From Desulfosarcina sp. OttesenSCG-928-A07 (lineage in GTDB: Bacteria; Desulfobacterota; Desulfobacteria; Desulfobacterales; Desulfosarcinaceae), in NCBI GenBank assembly GCA_030267325.1, contig JAJDJS010000010.1, positions 1-64,000 of the forward strand: 64,000 nucleotides of DNA, in the 5' to 3' direction. The notes under the pieces are model-generated. The model did no database searches. It saw only the letters and a program-made list of their open reading frames with translations, and was not told the DNA's origin. Of this stretch, positions 4,549-15,521 are shown in pieces (the stretch's first letter is position 1; each line of letters starts with the position of its first letter). Position numbers and translations under genes: made by a program.

Positions 4549-5426
4549 CCGGGCTCATCTTCTTGCATGGCAGCAATGATTTTCTGAAGGTAAGCAGTTT
4601 CTTTTTCACGGGGAAATCGGCAAGCGCCGGCGCCGTAATGTCCGCCACCTTCAAACGCGCCCAGCATTTTTCCCACATTCACACGGCAGCCGCGGTTTAA
4701 AATACTGTGCCCCACCTGGATGCTGGCGGTGTCTTCGTTCTCATATGTGATTTTGACATTGACCGCGCACTGGGGAAAAAGGGAATACACCAAAAACCGG
4801 TTACCCGTGGGTGTGGGATTGAGACGCCGGAAATCCGTGACCGACACCCGGCCCATCACCCGGGTGTTTTCTTTGAGGGCCTTTTCGTAAATCAGATTCG
4901 CGGTCACCACCTGTTCAGAGCGGGCACTGACCTTCTCATCCTGCATCACCTCATCCATGGGCAGGGTTCGCAAAAGGGCGACCAGATGTTCCCAATAGTC
5001 TTGTTCAGACGGATCGCTGGAAAGGGTCATGGAGAGCAAAATAAAAGGGTAGGCTTCGGGGTGGAGGATTTCATCCAGGGTCAGATCCGCTGAGTCAATG
5101 CGATCGGTTTCATGAACCAACTGCCGGTAGTCCCGTTTAAACCGGCCCTGGTAGTGTTCAAAAATAATGCCCGCAGCAGACGGGGCCAGTTTAAAATGGC
5201 CCTTGATGGGTTTGTCCGGTTCATTGGAAATATGGTGGTCAAACCATAAATGGCTTTTTTCGTGATAGGGAAGATTCGCGATCACATCGCCGTCTTGAAT
5301 GTCGACCCGTCCGTGCTGCATATCACTGGGCTGCACCCAGCACACGGGCGGGGCAATATCCAGCGCGTCCATCAACAGGACCGCACACACCACACCGTCG
5401 AAGTCAGGTCTTGTCACGACTCTCAT
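4545..5426 (-). CDS. DHH-family phosphoesterase
   Basis: A 293-residue member of the DHH/DHHA1 family, which hydrolyses phosphodiester bonds in oligoribonucleotides, cyclic dinucleotides or polyphosphate. The N-terminal motif RPDFDGVVCAVLL supplies the first metal-binding Asp residues, LWFDHHISNEP is the DHH signature (~78-85), and ILNRGCRVNVGKML plus FEGGGHYGAGAC at the C-terminus correspond to the substrate-binding GGGH element. Length is close to exopolyphosphatase-like family members. The substrate is not evident. The gene ends overlapping the isomerase-like gene by 4 bp and is 79 bp downstream of a small same-strand gene. Confidence 0.82.
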   Translation of the reverse strand: MRVVTRPDFDGVVCAVLLMDALDIAPPVCWVQPSDMQHGRVDIQDGDVIANLPYHEKSHLWFDHHISNEPDKPIKGHFKLAPSAAGIIFEHYQGRFKRDYRQLVHETDRIDSADLTLDEILHPEAYPFILLSMTLSSDPSEQDYWEHLVALLRTLPMDEVMQDEKVSARSEQVVTANLIYEKALKENTRVMGRVSVTDFRRLNPTPTGNRFLVYSLFPQCAVNVKITYENEDTASIQVGHSILNRGCRVNVGKMLGAFEGGGHYGAGACRFPREKETAYLQKIIAAMQEDEPG

Positions 5427-5505
5427 TCCAACACATCCTCCACTTTTTGGGAGTGTTTGTCAGCGATCCAAAGGGGGGCCAGCAGCACAACCAATAAAGG
5501 CCGGA

Positions 5506-5694
5506 TCAGGTTTCCGGGGAAGGCGTCTCCGGAGCATCTTCCGCCGATTGTCTGACGGTATCACTGACGGAGTTATAAATGGTCCTGAAGGATTCCGGAA
5601 AACTGGCAGGAGAAATGCGTCCGGTTTCAATGAATTTGACCACGATTTCTTTGGCGGTCCGCAGGATCTGTTCATCCAGACTGGTCTTTTTCAT
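5506..5694 (-). CDS. Small conserved-looking hypothetical protein
   Basis: A 62-residue acidic protein beginning MKKTSLDEQILRTAKEIVVK and ending in a Ser/Pro/Glu-rich tail. The N-terminal 45 residues are predicted helical by eye. Codon usage resembles neighbouring genes, the start is preceded by an AAGG sequence, and the gene is 79 bp upstream of the DHH phosphoesterase on the same strand, so it may be co-transcribed. I do not recognise a domain and assign no function. Confidence 0.55.
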   Translation of the reverse strand: MKKTSLDEQILRTAKEIVVKFIETGRISPASFPESFRTIYNSVSDTVRQSAEDAPETPSPET

Positions 5695-5868
5695 CGTATC
5701 GACCTTGCTGATTTTATATCAATATGCAATTAAAGGGCCTGTTAACAGGAAGCGGACGGGAAGTCAACCGCAGCCATTTCTGATGTCTTATAGGGATACG
5801 CGGCCTTGGCAATGATCAAAACGCCCGCCACTGACGATCCGCGAACCTTGTCCATCAACAGGAGTTTC

Positions 5869-6285
5869 ATGAAACCATCAACAAAATCATACGATCAGAC
5901 CTTACGTTACACACCCGACACACCGGAAGTCATTTCCACGGATTTCCTTGACCCCATCAAATATGCCTACCATGGCAAACGGGATATCGTGATTACCATT
6001 TCCCAGCCGGAATTCACATCTGTATGCCCCATGACCGGTCTTCCGGATTTTGGCGTCATCACCATTCGGTACACGCCGGATCAGTTTATTATTGAACTGA
6101 AGTCTCTCAAATATTACCTTCTGCAATTCCGGAATGTGGGAATTTTTTATGAGCATGTGGTCAACCGGATATTGGACGATCTGGTAAAGGTGTTAACCCC
6201 CCGGTTCATGGAAGTGACCGGGATGTTTACGGCCCGAGGCGGGCTTTCCACAACAGTCTGTGCGGATTACAGGAGAAAAGCGTGA
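5869..6285 (+). CDS. queF: NADPH-dependent 7-cyano-7-deazaguanine reductase
   Basis: QueF reduces preQ0 to preQ1 in queuosine biosynthesis. The 138-residue protein is the short, single-domain (Bacillus-type) form. The catalytic cysteine is in [13 protein letters not shown], whose Asp is the general acid, and the family motif [14 protein letters not shown] follows. The start at 5869 has AGGAG six bases upstream and gives the usual N-terminus; the frame is open for 21 more codons upstream but these look non-coding. Its stop overlaps the start of the lipoprotein gene, so the two are probably co-transcribed. Confidence 0.93.
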
Positions 6286-7214
6286 TGAAAAAACATATCA
6301 ACGTCCGATGGCTGTCGCTTGCAGGGATACTTTTGCTCATTGCCGGCTGCAACGTCCTGCCTTCTTACCGGCCCGCTGACACCCCAACCATTCAGGATTT
6401 TTCATCCTCCGGCCGCTACCGGAAGCAGATCGGTGTCATGGCGCTGACCAACACCACCCTTTTTGCCAGCTCCCAGGCAAGCGCACCGTTCATGGAAGCC
6501 TTTCTTTCCGAACTCGCATCCACTGTTCCCGACGCGATCCTGCTCACTCCGGGAAAACCCGATACGCCCGCCTTTCTGCTGAACCCGCCCCGTCTTTCCA
6601 CCGGAGAGGTGGATGCCTTTGCCTTTTCCGCCCTGGCCCGGCAGGCCGGGATGAGTGCCGTGGTCAGTCCGGTCCTCATGGATGTTCGTGTCCGCAAAGA
6701 AACCAGCGGATTATGGATTTTTAGAAGCGTTGACCACTATCTCCGGATTCAGGTCGCGGCTGCGGTGTATGATCCCATCACCGGCTCCCGGATCACCCTT
6801 GAGCGTCTGACCCAAGAGATTTCCATTGATGAAGATCTGGCCGGGGTCATCAACACCGGACGGGAAACCGCCGTTCCCGGCCTGGAGAAAACCATCGGGA
6901 AAATGGGAAAAGAGCTGGGAGAACAGATGGGCGAGACCATTTCCCGGGCGCCCTTGCGGCTGTCGGTGATTGCCGTGGAAAACAGCATGTGCGTCATCCC
7001 GGCGGGAAGCCTGGCTGGTATTTCCCAGGAAGACCGGTTTGCCGTCATTGACAACCGGGAAGTGCTGGCCGGGTGGAACGAACAGCGGTACAGGGTTCCA
7101 GGGGTTAAAATCGGAGGGGTTCGGGTGATTCAGGTCACACCCGAAAAATCCTTTGCCGTCCCGGAATCGGGTGACCCGCCGCCGGTGGGCAGCATTGTTG
7201 TGCCAGGGACTTAG
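6285..7214 (+). CDS. Outer-membrane-type lipoprotein of unknown function
   Basis: A 309-residue protein with a lipoprotein signal peptide: KK at the N-terminus, a hydrophobic core and the lipobox IAGC (Cys near residue 21), so it should be lipidated and anchored in an envelope membrane. The middle region (RKQIGVMALTNTTLFASSQ, MSAVVSPVLMDVRV) resembles the fold of CsgG/LpoB-type proteins and the C-terminal third (GSLAGISQEDRFAVIDNRE, GGVRVIQVTPEKSFAV) resembles FlgT C-terminal domains; both are impressions, not firm assignments. ATG 6285 and GTG 6282 are both possible starts, served by the same AGGAG. It overlaps the queF stop codon. Confidence 0.75.
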   Translation: MKKHINVRWLSLAGILLLIAGCNVLPSYRPADTPTIQDFSSSGRYRKQIGVMALTNTTLFASSQASAPFMEAFLSELASTVPDAILLTPGKPDTPAFLLNPPRLSTGEVDAFAFSALARQAGMSAVVSPVLMDVRVRKETSGLWIFRSVDHYLRIQVAAAVYDPITGSRITLERLTQEISIDEDLAGVINTGRETAVPGLEKTIGKMGKELGEQMGETISRAPLRLSVIAVENSMCVIPAGSLAGISQEDRFAVIDNREVLAGWNEQRYRVPGVKIGGVRVIQVTPEKSFAVPESGDPPPVGSIVVPGT

Positions 7215-7276
7215 GCAGTGCGGCCCTGCACAATCAGCAACATTTTTTATTTATCGTATTTCAAACGGTTGCGAGT

Positions 7277-8266
7277 TCAAGACAACCCTTCCGAATCCTC
7301 TGGAAAAAAAGATTCAGCATAATCCCGAATCCGGGAAAGCGCCTCTTTTTCCGAGGCCAGAAAACGAATGGACTGCCGGAAGGAAGTGGCACGGGGCATG
7401 CCTTTGACAAACCAGGAAAGCCGGCTGCGCATCATCCGGCAGGCCGCATCTTCTCCCAGATAGCGCACTGCCGCGCGCACATAATCCGTCAGGATGCGGA
7501 TTCGGTCCGCATCCGTTACCACCGGTACGGTTCTCTTTTCCACAGCCGCCTGAATCTGCCTGAAAATCATGGGGTTTCCGATGGCCGCCCGTCCCACCAT
7601 CACCCCGTCACACCGGGTTTGCGCCATCATCTCCAGAGCATCGTCTGCTGAATTCACATCTCCGTTTCCGATCACCGGAATGGAAAGCGACGCTTTCACT
7701 GCCGCAATAATACGCCAGTCCGCGTGTCCGCCAAACCCTTGCGTGGCGGTCCGGGGATGTACAGCGACCGCATCCGCCCCGTTGTCTTCCGCAATTCGGG
7801 CGATTTCCAGGGCCTGATTTCCAGATGGGTCCCATCCGGAGCGAATTTTGATGGTCAGGGGAATCGAAATGGCTTTTCGCACCGCCGCAATGATTTGACC
7901 TGCCCGCACCGAATCCCGCATCAGGGCTGCGCCGGAACGGCTTTTGAGGATTTTTTTGACGGAACAGCCACAGTTGATGTCAAGGATATCGGCGCCAGAG
8001 GCCTCAACAAGCTGCGCCGCCCGGGCCATGATGGCCGGATCTGCCCCAAAAATCTGAATGGAAAGGGGTTTTTCAAAAGGGTCACTGTCCATGAGCCGGA
8101 TGGTTTTTTCAGACCCGTACACAAGCCCGTTGGAACTGATCATTTCCGAGCAGACCAGCCCGCATCCGGCTTCTTTGGCCAGGATACGCATGGGGAGGTG
8201 AGTGATACCGGCAAGCGGGGCAAATACGGTTACCGCAGCACCGGTGTCCACAGCGCCGATCTTCAT
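7277..8266 (-). CDS. dusB: tRNA-dihydrouridine synthase
   Basis: A 329-residue flavoenzyme that reduces uridines in tRNA D-loops using FMN and NADPH. Signature segments are FAPLAGITHLPMRILAKEAG (FMN binding), CSEMISSNGLVYG, QIFGADP, DINCGCSVKKILKSRSGAAL with the catalytic Cys, IKIRSGWDP, HPRTATQGFGGHADW, IPVIGNGDVNS and DGVMVGRAAIGNP. The pattern and length fit the DusB type found across bacteria; note CGCSVKK where many homologues have CGCP. Its start overlaps the end of the upstream DUF1848 gene by 4 bp, indicating translational coupling. Confidence 0.93.
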   Translation of the reverse strand: MKIGAVDTGAAVTVFAPLAGITHLPMRILAKEAGCGLVCSEMISSNGLVYGSEKTIRLMDSDPFEKPLSIQIFGADPAIMARAAQLVEASGADILDINCGCSVKKILKSRSGAALMRDSVRAGQIIAAVRKAISIPLTIKIRSGWDPSGNQALEIARIAEDNGADAVAVHPRTATQGFGGHADWRIIAAVKASLSIPVIGNGDVNSADDALEMMAQTRCDGVMVGRAAIGNPMIFRQIQAAVEKRTVPVVTDADRIRILTDYVRAAVRYLGEDAACRMMRSRLSWFVKGMPRATSFRQSIRFLASEKEALSRIRDYAESFFPEDSEGLS

Positions 8267-9168
8267 GACCCGCCCCTTTTCCCGTCCGCCGGGTTGGCAT
8301 AGCAGTACAGACAGTTATGGAGGCAGGGATGAAGCCGGTACGACCCCACATCCACGGATTTCGTGCACCCGCATCCTCTCCCCCGCCGCTGTCCGGTATC
8401 AGCCCGTTGGCTTACGGATCCGCCGTAGCGGTCCATGATCCGTTTTCCGGAAACACACGCGCCGGACCGGACCGTAGAAAAAAGGGGAAGCTGATTTGCA
8501 ACCGCATTTTCGCAGCACAGGGCCAAGTGGATGCCAAGGGGCATGAGGCGGCGTTCCAGATCCAGAACAAGGGTGATTTTGTCCGCTGCCGGAAGATCGA
8601 TGAAGGTCAGCTTTCCCCGGCTCCGCCGGATGATTTTGGGATACAGGTCCATAAAGCTGGCCACGCAGGTCCGAATGCCCGCGTCGGCAGCCGAACGGGC
8701 AATGCGGTCAAAATCTCCAAGATTATTTCGGATCTTGCCGGGTTCGCTAAAAAAATGGCAGATGGGATCAAATCGCCACGCCACGGTTTCCGGACCAAAC
8801 CGCCGACTTAACTCGCCAAACTGCTCCAGTCGCTGGTCAAGGGGCGGAACACCGGGTTCCAGGTCCGGCACCCCTGAATTGACGGTAAACTGAAAAAACA
8901 CATGATACCCCATGGCCTTCAGGGTTTCACCATGCCTTGCGTCCAGAAACGGCCCGAAATTTTTGGACCAGAACACGAGGGTATGCACCTCATCCGGTGT
9001 TACGGGGATTTGCCGAACCTTGCGGGTATAGGGATTCTCAACGGAAATCAACCTCCTGGAAATGGCCGCCATGAACCCTTCCATATAAAATGCGGGAATA
9101 TCCGTCCGCCTGGAAATTGACAGCACCTTTTTTTCCGCGTGTGCACCATACCGCGACGCGCTGCCCAT
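8263..9168 (-). CDS. DUF1848 family protein
   Basis: A 301-residue protein of the DUF1848 family, recognised from SISRRTDIPAFY near the N-terminus, VSVxNP-like SVENPYTRKV, FWSKN, YHVFFQFT and, at the C-terminus, the cysteine cluster GCGCTKSVDVG followed by CLHNCLYCYANP. The last motif resembles an iron-sulfur binding element of radical-SAM proteins, and the family is thought to bind such a cluster, but the activity is unknown. It is translationally coupled to dusB (4-bp overlap), which hints at a role in RNA modification; that is inference. Confidence 0.82.
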   Translation of the reverse strand: MGSASRYGAHAEKKVLSISRRTDIPAFYMEGFMAAISRRLISVENPYTRKVRQIPVTPDEVHTLVFWSKNFGPFLDARHGETLKAMGYHVFFQFTVNSGVPDLEPGVPPLDQRLEQFGELSRRFGPETVAWRFDPICHFFSEPGKIRNNLGDFDRIARSAADAGIRTCVASFMDLYPKIIRRSRGKLTFIDLPAADKITLVLDLERRLMPLGIHLALCCENAVANQLPLFSTVRSGACVSGKRIMDRYGGSVSQRADTGQRRGRGCGCTKSVDVGSYRLHPCLHNCLYCYANPADGKRGGS

Positions 9169-9169
9169 C

Positions 9170-9517
9170 TCAGGATTTTCGCTTGTCTTTCAGGGAAATC
9201 ACCCGTGCGCCGGAAGACTTGGGGGAAGGCGGCGGTGAGGGATCGGGGGCTTTGTCAGGCAGGGAAGATTCCGGGGACGATGCTTCCGGAGACACGACCC
9301 GCTCCAGCCGGATGCGGTTGCCGTTCATGGTAAATTCGTCTCCCATGATGTACCGGTCCCGCAGAATCCAGGTTACCACCTCAAGGGGCACCTGAAGCAT
9401 CAACAGCTTGACGTGATACCAGTCGGGTTTGCTATCCGGCAGAATATCTTCAATCCGGGCAAAACAAAGGGGGGTATCTTCAAAATGGATTAAAACAATA
9501 TCGTTTTCCGCGGCCAT
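9170..9517 (-). CDS. Conserved-looking hypothetical protein
   Basis: A 115-residue protein with a compact N-terminal region (NDIVLIHFEDTPLCFARIED, WYHVKLLMLQVPL, WILRDRYIMGDEFTMNG) and a low-complexity Pro/Ser-rich C-terminal tail. The start at 9517 is preferred over 9532 because GGAGG lies eight bases before it. It ends one base before the DUF1848 gene begins, so the three genes down to dusB form one operon. No family is recognised; the core looks like a small beta-rich domain. Confidence 0.7.
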   Translation of the reverse strand: MAAENDIVLIHFEDTPLCFARIEDILPDSKPDWYHVKLLMLQVPLEVVTWILRDRYIMGDEFTMNGNRIRLERVVSPEASSPESSLPDKAPDPSPPPSPKSSGARVISLKDKRKS

Positions 9518-9531
9518 GGGAAAATCCTCCA

Positions 9532-10452
9532 TTATAAACCACGAATCAATTGAACCGCCCGCTGGCAGATACGGAAAAGAAAATCAGCTAATGCCTCGTC
9601 ATAGTTCTTAACTTCGTGGGTGTAGATACGGCTCTCTTCCCATATAGGATGATGGCCCCCATCTTTGGGGCGGGCCAAACGCAATCCCCAGTAAGCAGAA
9701 TCTGTCATTCTACTGGCATGGTTGCTTCCGGCTGCCGTCAGAAGCAGACGCAGGTGTTCATCCTCCCCTGACAATCCAATGAACAGACAAAAATGTGTAC
9801 GAAGAATGGTCACCAATTGCTGCCGCCAGGGTGAATCAGACGCGCCTATTTCTTTTTCGAATTCTTCTTGGGCAAGAATAATGGAGGGCGTGCCTTTTTC
9901 ACGGAGGTCATGAGGCAAAAAACCATGCGGGTGGTATATGGTCACATCCACGTTTTCGGCATAATAGCGCGGGCTTTGGATACAGGATACCGTATAGCCG
10001 TAATAGGAAAGGTAGGTTTCAAGAACACTGTCAAAGTTGAAGCTGATGATATTGGCGATTCTGCCCCGAGAGGAGTTCATGATCAAAGCGCCCATGGCGG
10101 CGATCTTCTCTTCCCTGTACAAGCTCTTGAAATCCATATTAACACCCCGATAAAGAGCTTCCCGCACAGCATTGAGAAAGGCGCCCACGTCATCCTGATA
10201 ATAGCGCTTCTTTATGTCCTGAGCCACAACAGCAGCGCTCTTTCCACTCCTATAGTCGGAAAACGGCGGCGATCCATCTGTCGCTTTTGAGTCGTATAAT
10301 TGGTTCAATAATTTTTGCCAACTGGGCAGGTTCTGCAAGGAAGCACCAGCGCCCAGCACCAGCCCCACATGACCCTTGGTCAGGTGTGTGGCCACATATT
10401 CAATGAGCCACGATTCCTCCCGCCAGTTGCTCTCAAGCTTTTCTCCCATCAT
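9532..10452 (-). CDS. SIR2-like domain protein, putative NAD-dependent defence effector
   Basis: A 306-residue protein with a SIR2-like Rossmann domain over most of its length. VGLVLGAGASLQNLPSW (residues 29-45) is the nucleotide-binding start, SFNFDSVLE (137-145) provides the catalytic Asn/Asp pair, IYHPHGFL (172-179) the catalytic His, and CLFIGLSGEDEHLR (222-235) the C-terminal motif. In known antiphage systems such domains degrade NAD+ on infection; deacetylase activity is less likely as no Zn-binding cysteines are visible. Its ATG overlaps the stop of the upstream metallopeptidase-like gene (ATGA), so the two are translationally coupled. Defence function is inferred from family and pairing. 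Confidence 0.8.
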   Translation of the reverse strand: MMGEKLESNWREESWLIEYVATHLTKGHVGLVLGAGASLQNLPSWQKLLNQLYDSKATDGSPPFSDYRSGKSAAVVAQDIKKRYYQDDVGAFLNAVREALYRGVNMDFKSLYREEKIAAMGALIMNSSRGRIANIISFNFDSVLETYLSYYGYTVSCIQSPRYYAENVDVTIYHPHGFLPHDLREKGTPSIILAQEEFEKEIGASDSPWRQQLVTILRTHFCLFIGLSGEDEHLRLLLTAAGSNHASRMTDSAYWGLRLARPKDGGHHPIWEESRIYTHEVKNYDEALADFLFRICQRAVQLIRGL

Positions 10453-12467
10453 CGCGCTATCTCAGGCCTGTTATACGCAAGGGAATTCAACATGCAGAGG
10501 GATTGAGTACCTGATGGGTCCAGGTTTCTGGTCTTTTCAAGCAGATATTTCAGGGGATTATCCAAATGATCGGGTATCAGTATCCCACCAGCGCCGGAAA
10601 AATTCTTGTGGTTCTGTATATGCAGTTGTGCTGCCGCTTCCTCGGAATACAGAATTGTAGACATGAACTGTGCAAGATTAATGAATGCAAGCAGGAGGGG
10701 CTTGAGTTTTTCTCGTCTTTTTTCAAGATGATCATGAATTTCTTCAAAAATATTGACGGCGTTGGAGGGGATCCTGGCCAAGGTGGCCTGCAGCTCTTTT
10801 GTTATTTCCAAAAAACGGGCAATGGTTGCGTCAGCTCGATTTGTCTCCAGGTGGAGTTGGTTGACTGACAAAGCCGCCAAGGTCCGTACAATATAGTCGT
10901 CATAACGGCGGCGCAAATCCGGCAGCACGTTCCAGGACAACCAAATTCCTTTTACATACGTCTTTTCATCTTTTTTGTAAAAATAGATAAAGTCAAAAAG
11001 ATGGACCGCAACTTCCCGAAATTCAGGCAATAATCGTCCATAGATGTCCCGTAAATGTTCGGCATCCGTAATGGTCAATTTCTTGGAGGACTGGGCCGCA
11101 TGATGCTGCGCAACAATGGAGATGAAGAAATAACGGATTGAGTCCAGAAAGGATTTCGGCCGGTTACCTTCATCGTAATTGTAACTCCAGTCGTACAGTT
11201 TTTGAAAAATCCCGTCCTCACTGGAATCAATGATCTCGCCAAGAACTGTTTCCACAAATACATGGGAGAGTTCATGGGTTATGTTGAAAAGAGACCAAGG
11301 CAAGGCATCACACGCGTTTACCGAAGATAACGGGGCGCTTAACGTACACCTCGACGCCTGCCGAAAGCCGTCCCGCCGGCTGAAATATACCAACATGGGA
11401 TACCGGTCGTTCTCGTATTCCTGTTGGATTTCTTCACTGTGGCAACCCAAATATGCATCATGCCATACCTTTTTGTCTGCAAACGGTGTCTTGTGCAGTT
11501 CCACCGGGGGCCTGCGGGAAAATTCAAACACGCGCAACGCAAAATTGAATCGGCCTAAGGCGTCTTCCACAAAAGAAGATATTCGCTGCAAGGCAAGGGT
11601 CGCTGTGCCTATTCCCAACAAGGAGTGAATCCAGAAGTGACATTCTGTTAAAACGATTGGCGATACTCCGGAAAAACACTGGCTTGACAACCTCGCCACG
11701 GCCGCAGTGACGTCTTTCAGGTGACTTTCAAAAATATTTCTTGCCTGGAACTCTCCCTTTTGCATCTCTTCCATGGATTCTTTGGCGTCATCAAGCAATT
11801 GAGCATTAAAGAGGCGCAGCTCTGAGCCCAGGGGCGGCAAAAATAATTCGCAACGCGCAATGGCGGACGCCATGAGTGGAGCGTAGTCGTGCAAAAGTTC
11901 ACGGGTTGACGCAGGAAAGTCCAAGGCGCATATCGCCTGGAGCGTTTCACGCCAGTCAGTGTGGATACGGGTGGAAGCATGATCGGGAGGAACAACGAAC
12001 GCCCTGTGTTGGCAAAGAACATTTTTTTCTATTTCCCAGACCTCATGGGGCTGTTTCTTCTCCTTCAGAAAGCGTTCAAGCTCTTGTGCATGGCTGTCAT
12101 TACGGATCACCACCAGCAGGTTGTAATACCCATAGGTAAGAAAAAAAGTTGCTGGAAAGGGTGGAAAACCAGAAGATAAAAACACCGCCGGAGTAACCGC
12201 GCCCAAAAAAAACACCGCACTCCAGTCCAAAAAAAAGTCCTCACAGGAGCACGGATTTGGTGGTTCACTTGTTCTGGAAAGGGGAATAACGGGGGAAACT
12301 CTGCTAAGTGGCGTCCATCCCGCCAGAATACCGGACAAATCTTGGCATAACTGGACGATGGGGCTTGTTTGGTATAGATCGCGATTCAGGCTCAGATAGT
12401 ATACATCAGACGCAATGCCGCAACGGGTTTCCGTGGAGCAAGAATATCTTGTGCTACCCGTTTCCAA
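10449..12467 (-). CDS. Large protein with HExxH metallopeptidase motif, partner of SIR2 gene
   Basis: An open frame of 672 codons. The central region contains FNITHELSHVFVETVL with the zinc-protease signature HELSH at residues 398-402 and several downstream acidic residues (GEIIDSSEDG) that could supply the third ligand, as in gluzincin-like peptidases. Residues ~560-640 look helical or coiled (LEITKELQATLARI, IHDHLEKRREKLKP). No in-frame ATG lies near the N-terminus: the frame begins at a TTG without a Shine-Dalgarno site, and the first internal Met is near residue 199. Coherent protein sequence continues upstream in other frames, so the true gene probably begins at about 12776 and is interrupted by frameshifts. 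I do not recognise the family; a protease that senses or activates the SIR2 partner is inference. Confidence 0.7.
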   Translation of the reverse strand: METGSTRYSCSTETRCGIASDVYYLSLNRDLYQTSPIVQLCQDLSGILAGWTPLSRVSPVIPLSRTSEPPNPCSCEDFFLDWSAVFFLGAVTPAVFLSSGFPPFPATFFLTYGYYNLLVVIRNDSHAQELERFLKEKKQPHEVWEIEKNVLCQHRAFVVPPDHASTRIHTDWRETLQAICALDFPASTRELLHDYAPLMASAIARCELFLPPLGSELRLFNAQLLDDAKESMEEMQKGEFQARNIFESHLKDVTAAVARLSSQCFSGVSPIVLTECHFWIHSLLGIGTATLALQRISSFVEDALGRFNFALRVFEFSRRPPVELHKTPFADKKVWHDAYLGCHSEEIQQEYENDRYPMLVYFSRRDGFRQASRCTLSAPLSSVNACDALPWSLFNITHELSHVFVETVLGEIIDSSEDGIFQKLYDWSYNYDEGNRPKSFLDSIRYFFISIVAQHHAAQSSKKLTITDAEHLRDIYGRLLPEFREVAVHLFDFIYFYKKDEKTYVKGIWLSWNVLPDLRRRYDDYIVRTLAALSVNQLHLETNRADATIARFLEITKELQATLARIPSNAVNIFEEIHDHLEKRREKLKPLLLAFINLAQFMSTILYSEEAAAQLHIQNHKNFSGAGGILIPDHLDNPLKYLLEKTRNLDPSGTQSLCMLNSLAYNRPEIAR

Positions 12468-12776
12468 ATACGTCTCACTTTCTGATTTTAATGGACACAG
12501 TGGGGTGTTGGAACAAATACCCGAGGAGTGCCAAGACGCTCTTGTCTCGGGTGGTCACCGTCCCCAAAAAGTATAAATTGGCGATGTACCCCCATCAGGG
12601 TTAACGCATTCTACGGCGCGTGACTCAGGACCTGCTTCTTCAAGTTGCGGGTGTTTGCCAAGGAGGTGCAAGGGGGTTGCCAAATAACTGGCATCATCAG
12701 TCTGCCCCATTGAAAGCCGCAATCCACTATGGGCATCCTGCTTTCTCAGTTTGCGGACACTTCGTTTTGTAACCAT
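12468..12776 (-). pseudogene. Probable N-terminal part of the HExxH gene, displaced by two frameshifts
   Basis: A reading frame begins at ATG 12776 (GGAGG just upstream; also a GTG at 12797) and encodes MVTKRSVRKLRKQDAHSG and onward to ECVNPDGG before stopping near 12555. If one G is added to the G5 run in GATGGGGGTAC (about 12593-12597), the frame continues YIANLYFLGTVTTRDKS then LALLGYLFQHPTVSIK; if one A is removed from the A4 run of TTAAAATC (about 12485-12488), it joins SESETYLETGSTRYSC in the 672-codon frame. The joined sequence is protein-like throughout. Both shifts are at homopolymers, so sequencing error and genuine inactivation are both possible. Confidence 0.5.
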
Positions 12777-12968
12777 CATTCCTCCATATTGTGCCACATG
12801 CGCTATCTGAAGACGAACAGATCATAGTCTCTTAAAGAGGGCATTTTAGCATCAATTTTATAGAGACTTCAAGGGTTTTTCCCTCCTGGCCAGTGCTTCT
12901 CCCCGCCATCGGTCCTCAGCGATGTCTGCATGGCGATCGGTCGCTCAAACACTTTCCTGGGATGATGG

Positions 12969-12980
12969 CCCCCCCCCCCC
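12969..12980. repeat. Homopolymer tract of 12 C
   Basis: Twelve consecutive C (G on the coding strand of the downstream operon). Tracts of this length are prone to slipped-strand length change. It is upstream of the HExxH/SIR2 operon and downstream of the pheT terminator, so it lies where it could affect promoter spacing. The effect is speculative. Confidence 0.8.
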
Positions 12981-13067
12981 GCTTCTTGCGTTCCCGTTGA
13001 TTACCTCACTTCGCATCTGGTGCTTTTTGCCGCATGACGCTCGTTTTATCAGGGGATGACGATTGCG

Positions 13068-13086
13068 AAAAAACGGCTGGCAGCCG
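13068..13086 (-). terminator. Intrinsic terminator after pheT
   Basis: On the minus strand CGGCT GCC AGCCG forms a 5-bp GC-rich stem directly followed by T6, 18 bp after the pheT stop codon. Position and form fit the end of the infC-rpmI-rplT-pheS-pheT transcript. Confidence 0.6.
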
Positions 13087-13103
13087 GAAAAAGCCCTGCC
13101 ACT

Positions 13104-15521
13104 TTACATCGGCAGGTCAGCATCAAAAACCGCAATCAGGCGATGGGTCAGATCCCGGTGAAGGGCATTGATGGCCTCGTCTTCCAGGGTGCGTTCCGAT
13201 GACCGGTACACCACCCGCAAAGACACACTTTTTTTCCCGTCTGGAATGGGGTCTCCGGAAAACACGTCAAAAAGTGAAACCTGCTCCACCAGCGGTTCAT
13301 CAAAGGCCAGCAATTTTTCAATCAACCGGTTCGATTCAATGTCCTGATCCACAATCACCGTGATGTCCCGATCTGTTGCGGGAAATCTGGGAATGGGCGC
13401 CATTTGCGGCGTACCGGCCATGGCAGCGGCCAGTGCCTCTCCTTCAAATTCAAAAATAAAGACCGGCTGTCGGATCTGATAAGAATGGAGCACACCTGCA
13501 TCCACTTCTCCCACCTGACCGATAACCTTGCCGTCAGCGGCAAAAACGCTGGCCGTATACCCCGTCCGGGTGTATTGGCACGCGTCATCGGAACAGGCGG
13601 TAAAGGTTGCCGCAGTAATGCCCAGCCCCTTGAGCAATCCTTCGGCAACACCCTTGATATCGTAAAAATCACAGGCCCGCTCACGGGTATGCCAGACCGG
13701 ATCCGTCACCGGTCCGGTCCAGGCAGCAATGACCATTTCCCTTTCAACAGGGAGGAGGGCGCCGGGCTGGGGGAAAAACACTTTTCCGATCTCAAAAAGC
13801 CGGATTCGGCTCTGCTGACGGGAAACATTGCGCTGAACGGTTTCCAGCATCCCCGGCACCAGACTGGTGCGCATCACCGCCTGATCCTCGGAAATCGGGT
13901 TGAGGAGCGTTACATGGGATCGCCTGGGATCATCGGCATTCAGCCGGATCCGGTCGCCGGATTCCGGACTGATGAAGCTGTAATTGATGGCTTCGGAAAA
14001 TCCGAACCCCACCAGAATTTCCCGGATGCGCTGGCGAACGGCCATAAGGGGTGAGTCTTTGGGGCCAGTGGCCGGCGGCGCCGGATAGGTGGTGGGAATA
14101 TGATGATATCCCCAGAGCCGGGCCACCTCTTCCATGAGATCCTGGGGGAGGGTCACATCCACCCGAAAGGATGGAATCGCCACCACCAGGTGCTGATCAT
14201 CCCGGGACGTGACTGAAAATTCAACCCGTTCCAGAAAATCGGCCATTTTTTCGCTGTCAAGGTCGGTTCCCAAAAGCGTATTGGTGGCAGCCACATTCAG
14301 GTGAATAGGCGGCTGGGGTGCGGGGCGGAAATCCGCATCCATGATGTCCCCCAGGGGTGCGCCGTTTCCCAGTTCCACCATCAGGGCGGTGGCCCGGTTG
14401 AGGGCAAAAAGGGTTCCGCCCGGATCGACGCCCCGCTCGTACCGATAGGCTGCATCAGTGCTGAGGCCCAGGGTTTTGGCGGTTTTTCGGATGCTAATGG
14501 GATTAAAACAGGCGCTTTCAATGAGAACGCGCGTCGTGGTGTCCTTAATTTCGGAGTCCAGCCCGCCCATGACACCGCCGATGGCCACGGGTTTTTCGCC
14601 GTCACAGATCATCAGCATCTGGTCTGTGAGTGTACGTTGTTTTTTGTCCAGGGTCACAAAACCTTCGCCCTGGGCTGCGGTTTTCACCACAATCCGGTGG
14701 CCGGCCAGAAAATCAAAATCAAAGGCATGGAGCGGCTGACCGGTTTCCAGCATGACAAAATTGGTGATATCCACAATATTGTTGATGGGCCGGACGCCCA
14801 CGGACCGGAGCCGGTCCTGGAGCCAGAAGGGAGACGGCGCCACGGTGAGGGGACCCACCACACGGGCCGAATACCGGGGGCAATGGTCCGGTGCTTCAAT
14901 GGTGATGGTGGTGGAAGGGGGAAGGGGGCCCGCTGCCGCAAGAACCGAAACCGCCGGTTTTGTTATGTTGATATTCTGAATGGCCGCAATTTCACGGGCC
15001 ACGCCTATCATGCTGAGGCAGTCCGGCCGGTTGGGGGTCAGACCGATTTCAAGCACCACATCATCCAGCCCAAGGGCTTCTTTAAGGGGTGTTCCGGGTA
15101 AAAACGACCCATCCAGCACCATGAGGCCGGAGCGGTCCAGACCCAGTTCCAGTTCGGTTTCACTGCACAGCATACCGCAGGATGCTTCTCCCCGGATTCG
15201 GGTTTTTTCCAGCAACACGCCGCCGGGAAGCCGGGTTCCCACTTTGGCCAAAGGCGCCTTCATCCCCACGGCAACATTGGGCGCGCCGCACACAATGGAA
15301 AGAATCTCGCCGCCCGCATCCACTTTGCAGCACCTGAGCCGGTCTGCATTGGGGTGGGGAGAAACCGACAGGACCTCTCCCACCACCACGGTATCCAGGT
15401 ATGCGTAGCGATCTTCAATGGCATCGACTTCCAGCCCGGCCATGGTGAGTGCCTCGGCCAGATCAGGAATCGTCATGTTGATGGGGACATAGTGTTTCAG
15501 CCAGTTGATGCTTACTTTCAT
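13104..15521 (-). CDS. pheT: Phenylalanyl-tRNA synthetase beta subunit
   Basis: An 805-residue beta subunit of the alpha2-beta2 enzyme that charges tRNA-Phe. It begins MKVSINWLKHYV and shows the N-terminal tRNA-binding EMAP-like domain (VVVGEVLSVSPHPNADRL, SIVCGAPNV), the B3/B4 editing domain (ATALMVELGNGAP region upstream; RYSARVVGPL), the B5 and core regions, and the C-terminal anticodon-binding ferredoxin-like domain (FPATDRDITVIVDQDI, LRVVYRSSERTLEDEAIN). ATG 15521 is used; the frame extends three codons to a TTG that lacks support. It lies 18 bp after pheS in the usual cluster. Confidence 0.96.
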   Translation of the reverse strand: MKVSINWLKHYVPINMTIPDLAEALTMAGLEVDAIEDRYAYLDTVVVGEVLSVSPHPNADRLRCCKVDAGGEILSIVCGAPNVAVGMKAPLAKVGTRLPGGVLLEKTRIRGEASCGMLCSETELELGLDRSGLMVLDGSFLPGTPLKEALGLDDVVLEIGLTPNRPDCLSMIGVAREIAAIQNINITKPAVSVLAAAGPLPPSTTITIEAPDHCPRYSARVVGPLTVAPSPFWLQDRLRSVGVRPINNIVDITNFVMLETGQPLHAFDFDFLAGHRIVVKTAAQGEGFVTLDKKQRTLTDQMLMICDGEKPVAIGGVMGGLDSEIKDTTTRVLIESACFNPISIRKTAKTLGLSTDAAYRYERGVDPGGTLFALNRATALMVELGNGAPLGDIMDADFRPAPQPPIHLNVAATNTLLGTDLDSEKMADFLERVEFSVTSRDDQHLVVAIPSFRVDVTLPQDLMEEVARLWGYHHIPTTYPAPPATGPKDSPLMAVRQRIREILVGFGFSEAINYSFISPESGDRIRLNADDPRRSHVTLLNPISEDQAVMRTSLVPGMLETVQRNVSRQQSRIRLFEIGKVFFPQPGALLPVEREMVIAAWTGPVTDPVWHTRERACDFYDIKGVAEGLLKGLGITAATFTACSDDACQYTRTGYTASVFAADGKVIGQVGEVDAGVLHSYQIRQPVFIFEFEGEALAAAMAGTPQMAPIPRFPATDRDITVIVDQDIESNRLIEKLLAFDEPLVEQVSLFDVFSGDPIPDGKKSVSLRVVYRSSERTLEDEAINALHRDLTHRLIAVFDADLPM

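Follow-up and report, generated by a model that had tools for sequence, protein, structure and literature searches.

What does a large protein with a zinc-peptidase motif do in the same operon as a SIR2-domain protein? The question is raised by a 64,000-nucleotide stretch of Desulfosarcina sp. OttesenSCG-928-A07 (contig JAJDJS010000010.1, positions 1 to 64,000; hereafter the window, at its full length), in which an earlier note had pointed to a HELSH-bearing open reading frame (ORF) coupled to a SIR2 ORF through an ATGA overlap. Both ORFs, which lie on the minus strand, and the overlap (10449-10452) are present. We refer to the HELSH-bearing protein as MP and to a third gene, found between the two in relatives, as MID. 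The window pair seems to be a MID-less, derived variant of a three-gene operon, MP-MID-SIR2, that has spread horizontally. Judging from the sequences, we think it somewhat probable that this is a regulated SIR2 defense operon of the abortive-infection type; that proteolysis is what switches SIR2 is a more tentative proposal. The main features of the pair are as follows.

10449..12467, minus strand: MP, a 672-amino-acid (aa) HExxH metallopeptidase-like protein with a TTG start (ORF)
9532..10452, minus strand: SIR2-domain protein of 306 aa (Pfam SIR2_2), a predicted NADase effector
10449..10452, minus strand: ATGA stop/start overlap from MP to SIR2, at the site of the MID gene in relatives
11262..11276, minus strand: HELSH (H398, E399, and H402 of MP), inside predicted helix 393-412
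10992..11015, minus strand: E485xxxH489xxD492 of MP, in predicted helix 469-496, with candidate third zinc ligand Glu485 and second-shell residues
10030..10038, minus strand: N139-F-D141 of SIR2, aligned to N107/D109 of KomC (counted from the alignment)
9922..9933, minus strand: H174-P-H176-G of SIR2; H176 is aligned to KomC H146, the residue altered in the solved KomC(H146N)

The earlier note had extended MP to position 12797. An in-frame stop at 12555-12557 closes the frame upstream, leaving the TTG at 12467 as the longest start, and homology to relatives spans approximately 10464 to 12416, so that MP is shorter than first drawn.

Conservation of the pair elsewhere, which the earlier note had proposed to look for by gene neighborhood and on which it had staked its reading in advance, was found in very different hosts. 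Relatives came to light only with an alignment (A1) of the window SIR2 and five distant SIR2 proteins: searched against 84,980 species genomes, it returned 283 SIR2 relatives, of which the best 80 were examined. An MP homolog lies upstream in the same direction at 19 of these 80 loci (L073, L075 to L091, and L093), as detected by tblastn and profile. The other 61 loci gave no MP homolog by either method; nine of them, including L074, have less than 2 kb of upstream sequence, which makes the test weak for some of this group. The carriers are 19 of the first 21 loci by rank, the exceptions being L074 and L092, indicating that MP belongs with one SIR2 subfamily.

Host labels of the carriers cover at least nine phylum-level groups (SAR324, Pseudomonadota, Acidobacteriota, Binatota, PVC, Planctomycetota, Verrucomicrobiota, Bacillota, Bacteroidota, and Saccharibacteria). 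The record titles name SAR324, Rhodobacterales, Rubrivivax, Paraburkholderia, Lysobacterales, Acidobacteria, Binatia, a PVC bacterium, Rhodopirellula, another planctomycete, Spartobacteria, Ammonifex, Saccharibacteria, and four Bacteroidota, and single labels may be wrong because many relatives are metagenome-assembled genomes. Closer to home, MP is rare and patchy: the window's own copy is the only full-length match in 395 genomes of the phylum and 389 of the order. Single-sequence MP searches found no homolog in collections of genome contigs, viral contigs, and plasmids, and nothing beyond the own genome in the 395 phylum genomes. A search of the order genomes at E ≤0.1 touched 17 further genomes with short, weak matches, which were not counted.

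At all 19 MP-carrying loci, a gene of approximately 225 to 290 codons, MID, stands between MP and SIR2. The two-gene operon of the earlier note is therefore an accurate description of this genome and not of the family. A MID profile (A4) built from 17 loci also recovers the two that were not included, L079 and L081. MID has no trusted family match in Pfam, PADLOC, or PDB; one of 17 members touches Pentapeptide at 0.004, and the PDB rows are at chance level. It is the least conserved of the three proteins in 99 of 105 locus pairs, with a mean identity of 17% compared with 23% for MP and 29% for SIR2, and such fast evolution fits a sensor, an adaptor, or a brake. Derivation of MID from a duplicated part of MP was rejected. 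We also set aside a copy hidden elsewhere in the host genome: the profile found no match in the window or in the own genome (94% complete; this genome search had no positive control).

In a tree computed from the concatenated MP and SIR2 alignments of 18 loci (L074, L086, and L089 omitted as truncated or lacking one partner), the window sequence falls inside a clade of 11 loci supported at 100/100, and MID is present in the other ten members and in all seven loci outside the clade. Because the window lineage is nested among MID carriers, the absence is best described as a loss, and the most parsimonious account is one loss along this lineage, provided that the tree is not rooted on the branch of the window itself. 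Its exact position within the clade is weakly supported (82/75), where it joins another long branch, L077, and its end branch is long (1.56). Mechanical start calls place 4-bp overlaps between MP and MID in 5 of 17 relatives and between MID and SIR2 in 2 of 17; a deletion between two such overlaps may have yielded the ATGA junction seen here.

The three proteins share much of their history. Distance matrices correlate with r = 0.83 for MP and SIR2 (18 loci), 0.85 for MP and MID, and 0.65 for SIR2 and MID (15 loci), and none of 2,000 permutations reached the observed value in any test. Shared descent within a locus would by itself give such correlations, so they indicate that the operon travels as a unit and do not speak to physical contact. 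The branching of the tree disagrees with the host labels, suggesting transfer between lineages.

The SIR2 protein matches Pfam SIR2_2 (PF13289) at 1.5e-12, scoring 48.3 bits against a cut-off of 24.5, and the GAGAS, Asn, and His motifs that the earlier note had read as intact are indeed present. All 20 aligned rows (L086 omitted; truncated L074 retained) share G36, N139, D141, H174, H176, and G177, with N139 and H176 aligning to KomC N107 and H146. Searched against PDB, the family profile lies nearest to immune NADases such as KomC (6.6e-18), ThsA (1.4e-12), and DSR2 (8wyb, as labeled; 1.5e-10) rather than to a housekeeping family, the other outcome that the earlier note had entertained. Further matches include a 278-aa chain labeled "NAD-dependent protein deacetylase" (9v0g, 3.8e-14), a "USG protein" (7uxt, 3.9e-14), FAM118B (3.4e-13), and unlabeled 1005-aa SIR2-like chains (3e-12). 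The subfamily is thereby placed next to enzymes that, according to published work (PMC12774641 among the sources), destroy NAD+ in infected cells. The window SIR2 is probably an NAD+-depleting effector.

The case for MP as a peptidase comes from its invariant residues and their predicted placement. H398, E399, and H402 of the HELSH motif, together with E485, H489, D492, Y495, W509, S511, and W512, are identical in all 19 aligned MPs (the window and 18 relatives; L089, being truncated, was omitted). An AlphaFold2 (AF2) model computed from these 19 sequences is confident, with a mean predicted local distance difference test (pLDDT) score of 84.8 and a predicted template modeling (pTM) score of 0.88, compared with a pLDDT of 35.4 without the alignment. 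In the model, helix 393-412 carries HExxH and helix 469-496 carries ExxxHxxD. Such an arrangement, a HExxH helix and then a Glu from a helix farther along the chain, would be expected in a gluzincin. Taken together, the alignment and model suggest that MP is a zinc-peptidase-like protein of gluzincin-type layout with Glu485 as a putative third zinc ligand.

Library searches gave no trusted family match for MP. Nothing scored above the curated cut-off in Pfam, no match was found in NCBIfam or in PADLOC (2023 copy), either for the window MP or, in PADLOC, for its relatives, PHROGs gave only a weak match (0.034), and nothing credible appeared among PDB sequences. Pfam matches of single family members to rve_2, ACDH-11_C, Trans_coact, and PUB10_N (each 1 of 19 members, at 0.00045 or weaker) were dismissed as chance. 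Foldseek with the MP model retrieved nothing at E ≤0.001 from PDB or BFVD; because no solved peptidase was recognized among the matches listed, assignment to a peptidase fold rests on the motifs. VIA-align put a designed helical protein first (Z 11.2) and showed a likeness of the MP N terminus to ferredoxin-like domains, phage SAM lyase (Z 8.2) among them; we draw no function from either.

A distant cousin of MP was seen in another genome, G150 (locus L156, within the region 4761-8054). This 727-aa protein carries HETGH and, as its second motif, ExxxD; it matches the MP family profile at the second motif (8.1e-5), and hhalign gives an E value of 0.00037 with a probability of only 36%. It lies directly downstream of a 368-aa protein in which GDG, NYD, and HG motifs, identified by eye, resemble those of a worn SIR2; hhalign of this protein to the SIR2 family and a PDB search were both nonsignificant. 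A type I restriction-like ORF and a TIR-like/FGE-like ORF, also assigned by eye, are nearby. From its motifs, the locus is possibly a second, older peptidase-SIR2 pairing.

How does the operon compare with known systems? Kongming (KomABC) supplies the closest solved SIR2 by profile: KomC is similar in size (264 aa), has the same Asn and His positions, and likewise belongs to a multigene operon. Its partners, KomA and KomB, seem to differ from those here, namely, a HExxH protein and, at the related loci, MID, both of which were scanned against Pfam, PADLOC, and PDB without a trusted match. Kongming is activated by deoxyinosine triphosphate (dITP) through KomB, according to excerpts of PMC12774641. 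In Thoeris, the SIR2 part of ThsA is the best PADLOC match of the window SIR2 (2.6e-06), so the PADLOC comparison suggested in the earlier note yielded a relative for SIR2 and nothing for MP. This match is confined to residues 131-240, and the window SIR2 ends at 306 aa. Pfam detected no TIR domain, as would be expected of ThsB, in the four genes at 8263-12467 (MP, SIR2, and two downstream genes). Thoeris is reported to be switched by cyclic ADP-ribose (cADPR) isomers, and DSR2 by a tail tube protein. DSR1/DSR2 share the SIR2 NADase-type domain (8wyb and the 1005-aa chains above), but the solved DSR2 chains are single proteins of approximately 1005 aa, whereas the window has a 306-aa SIR2 and a separate 672-aa partner. 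SIR2-HerA, like the window pair, combines a SIR2 effector with a separate large partner; no HerA-type match was found in MP or MID. SIR2-HerA is named in the excerpted text of PMC10952713.

Peptidases themselves are not foreign to abortive infection. Excerpts of two papers (PMC10952713 and PMC3506569) describe the CHAT protease of Borvo and type III-E CRISPR and the zincin Lit as components of such systems, a likeness to the role proposed for MP here. They differ in that the peptidase is either the caspase-like CHAT or Lit, which itself cleaves EF-Tu, and those excerpts describe no separate SIR2 gene. Among the titles and abstract openings listed for open-access PubMed Central, we found no description of a HExxH-SIR2 operon; subscription papers, most of bioRxiv, and the current DefenseFinder fall outside this scope. 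The MP-MID-SIR2 operon is apparently undescribed. SIR2 effectors are a known kind, and it is the partners, MP and MID, that appear to be new, having no trusted match in the libraries searched (Pfam, PADLOC, and PDB for both, and NCBIfam and PHROGs for MP).

SIR2 NADases are a common suicide effector in bacteria, and to our knowledge the triggers described for them are binding events. In the defense reading we favor, SIR2 would be the effector that depletes NAD+, and MP, together with MID, would detect infection and switch SIR2 on. MP could be the sensor, the activator, or both, and the simplest switch would be proteolysis of SIR2, of MID, or of a phage or host trigger. In this genome, MID would have been deleted cleanly, such that the MP stop and SIR2 start came to overlap by ATGA. 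A fuller version, with a new zinc-metallopeptidase family that controls a SIR2 NADase by proteolysis and the fast-evolving MID as an interchangeable sensor or brake, is in our estimate rather unlikely as a whole; if it were true, the window would be a natural two-gene experiment in which peptidase and SIR2 persist without MID. A conserved operon that links SIR2 to a peptidase would suggest protease-gated NAD+ depletion, a logic comparable to caspase-gated immunity. The three-gene form in cultured hosts (e.g., Pedobacter sp. Leaf216, L087, and Paraflavitalea, L090) and the MID-less form here offer a genetic handle on each part.

The surroundings of the window pair bear on its history. MP and SIR2 are flanked on one side by pheT, whose end is at 13104, and on the other by a small conserved gene (9170-9532) that belongs to a cluster with DUF1848 and dusB. 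The earlier note had taken the pair for an insertion between pheT and a dusB operon. Both pheT and the small gene were found in 10 of 12 congeners, and in none of these 10 are pheT and the cluster neighbors: pheT and the small gene are 0.74 to 1.56 Mb apart in four and on different contigs in six. Since these flanks are not adjacent in congeners, the pair occupies a rearrangement junction rather than an insertion point in a conserved site. When the sequence downstream of pheT was inspected by eye in six congeners, each showed a MerR-like gene and five showed a nusA-like gene. The G+C contents of MP (48%) and SIR2 (50%) are below the 54 to 57% of dusB, DUF1848, the small gene, pheS, and pheT, which fits a foreign origin.

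Some observations qualify or weigh against the explanation we favor. The flanks of 19 relative loci (L074 among them; L086 contributed nothing) supplied 111 ORFs for scanning. PADLOC returned 53 families at 1e-5 (25 of them listed), and when 10 flanking ORFs were scanned singly, four matched, in only three loci: a PDC-S37/Hhe-like helicase in L075 (2.8e-147), UvrD-like and SNF2-like helicases in L080, and a second SIR2 protein in L087. The proximity to other defense genes anticipated by the earlier note is thus pinned down at three of the 19 scanned loci; with no background rate and unspecific helicase matches, this support is weak. Five MPs (from the window, L082, L076, L087, and L085) had no match in 72,556 plasmid records, and the L076 MP had none in 50,697 phage records, an absence that is unusual for a highly mobile defense system. 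No solved peptidase was recognized among the fold matches listed for the MP model, and the window operon, being without MID, may be inactive.

This last point leads to a reading that we regard as a serious possibility, falling slightly short of an even chance, namely, that the window operon is a decaying remnant that stopped working when MID was lost, while the family works elsewhere. It is compatible with a defense role for the family. Retention of MID in all 19 relatives, the position at a rearrangement junction, and the long end branch argue for it; yet both frames are full length, every family-invariant residue is kept, and at their new junction, MP and SIR2 meet in an exact translational overlap. 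That clean ATGA, with neither frame broken, also makes it very improbable that the arrangement is an assembly artifact, whether a chimeric contig joining pheT, the pair, and the dusB block or a MID lost in assembly, even though the draft genome is in 114 contigs and the gene order flanking the pair is not seen in congeners.

A different question is what MP does. MP might be a structural sensor or scaffold, its zinc site serving folding or ligand binding, with SIR2 activated allosterically and without cleavage; this would replace only the proteolytic step and keep the defense role. We hold it to be possible but somewhat doubtful. Known SIR2 effectors (DSR2, Thoeris, and Kongming) are switched by protein or nucleotide binding, as far as the excerpted sources go, and residues ~71-160 of MP resemble small ferredoxin-like domains, some of them ligand binding, with Z of only 5 to 8. 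However, the catalytic Glu399 and both His residues are invariant in 19 of 19 distant MPs, a constraint that a scaffold alone would not require, and retention of the catalytic Glu across such distances suggests that cleavage matters. The operon could also be a toxin-antitoxin-like module, in which SIR2 is the toxin and MID (or MP) an antitoxin or chaperone, that stabilizes mobile DNA rather than sensing phage. Its tight gene order with overlaps, the fast-evolving middle gene, and the phage integrases and mutator transposases among the 111 flanking ORFs (at least three and at least two, respectively, among the 25 of 58 Pfam families listed) are in keeping with such a module. But MID is absent from the window while SIR2 retains its family-invariant residues, which speaks against MID as an indispensable antitoxin unless the window system is dead, and a HExxH protein of 630 to 750 aa would be unusual as an antitoxin. 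We consider this explanation quite unlikely.

Returning to the locus, the region upstream of MP holds one further feature.

12468..13100, minus strand: upstream region with an 80-aa ORF (12555-12797), separate from MP

This ORF was rejected as a conserved upstream gene, having no detectable relative within 700 bases upstream of other MP genes. A G run and a noncoding stretch (12900-13100) separate MP from a terminator-like hairpin at 13074-13086, and the number of promoter-like sites in 9000-13300 does not exceed chance expectation. On the other side, the small gene at 9170-9532 encodes 120 aa without a trusted Pfam match and is found in 27 of 30 genomes of the family (own included). All eight relative loci examined retain it together with DUF1848 and dusB, and DUF1848 was rejected as part of a reverse-transcriptase system (PADLOC RTasDUF1848), since it stands beside dusB in each of the eight.

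Other observations concern the relatives and the mobile-element collections. In L080 (5916-10866), an Hsp70-like protein, identified by eye, lies between the UvrD-like and SNF2-like helicases and adjoins the MP-MID-SIR2 operon; this looks like another defense cluster. In viral contigs, a DNA pattern for the HELSH region found nothing and a SIR2 search with A3 gave no confirmed match. One contig of the viral collection, L153, has an MP-like stretch at 6001-7044 with no matching ORF of at least 100 aa, near a serine-recombinase-like ORF, and by its sequence seems to be a decayed copy on a mobile element. Among plasmid SIR2 matches, H1 to H3 have other annotated neighbors and the H4 stretch is unannotated. 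On a Rhizobium plasmid (L007, 1300-7048), genes for a P-loop NTPase, a SIR2 protein, and a nucleoside 2-deoxyribosyltransferase follow one another closely, and the SIR2-deoxyribosyltransferase pair is also present in L006.

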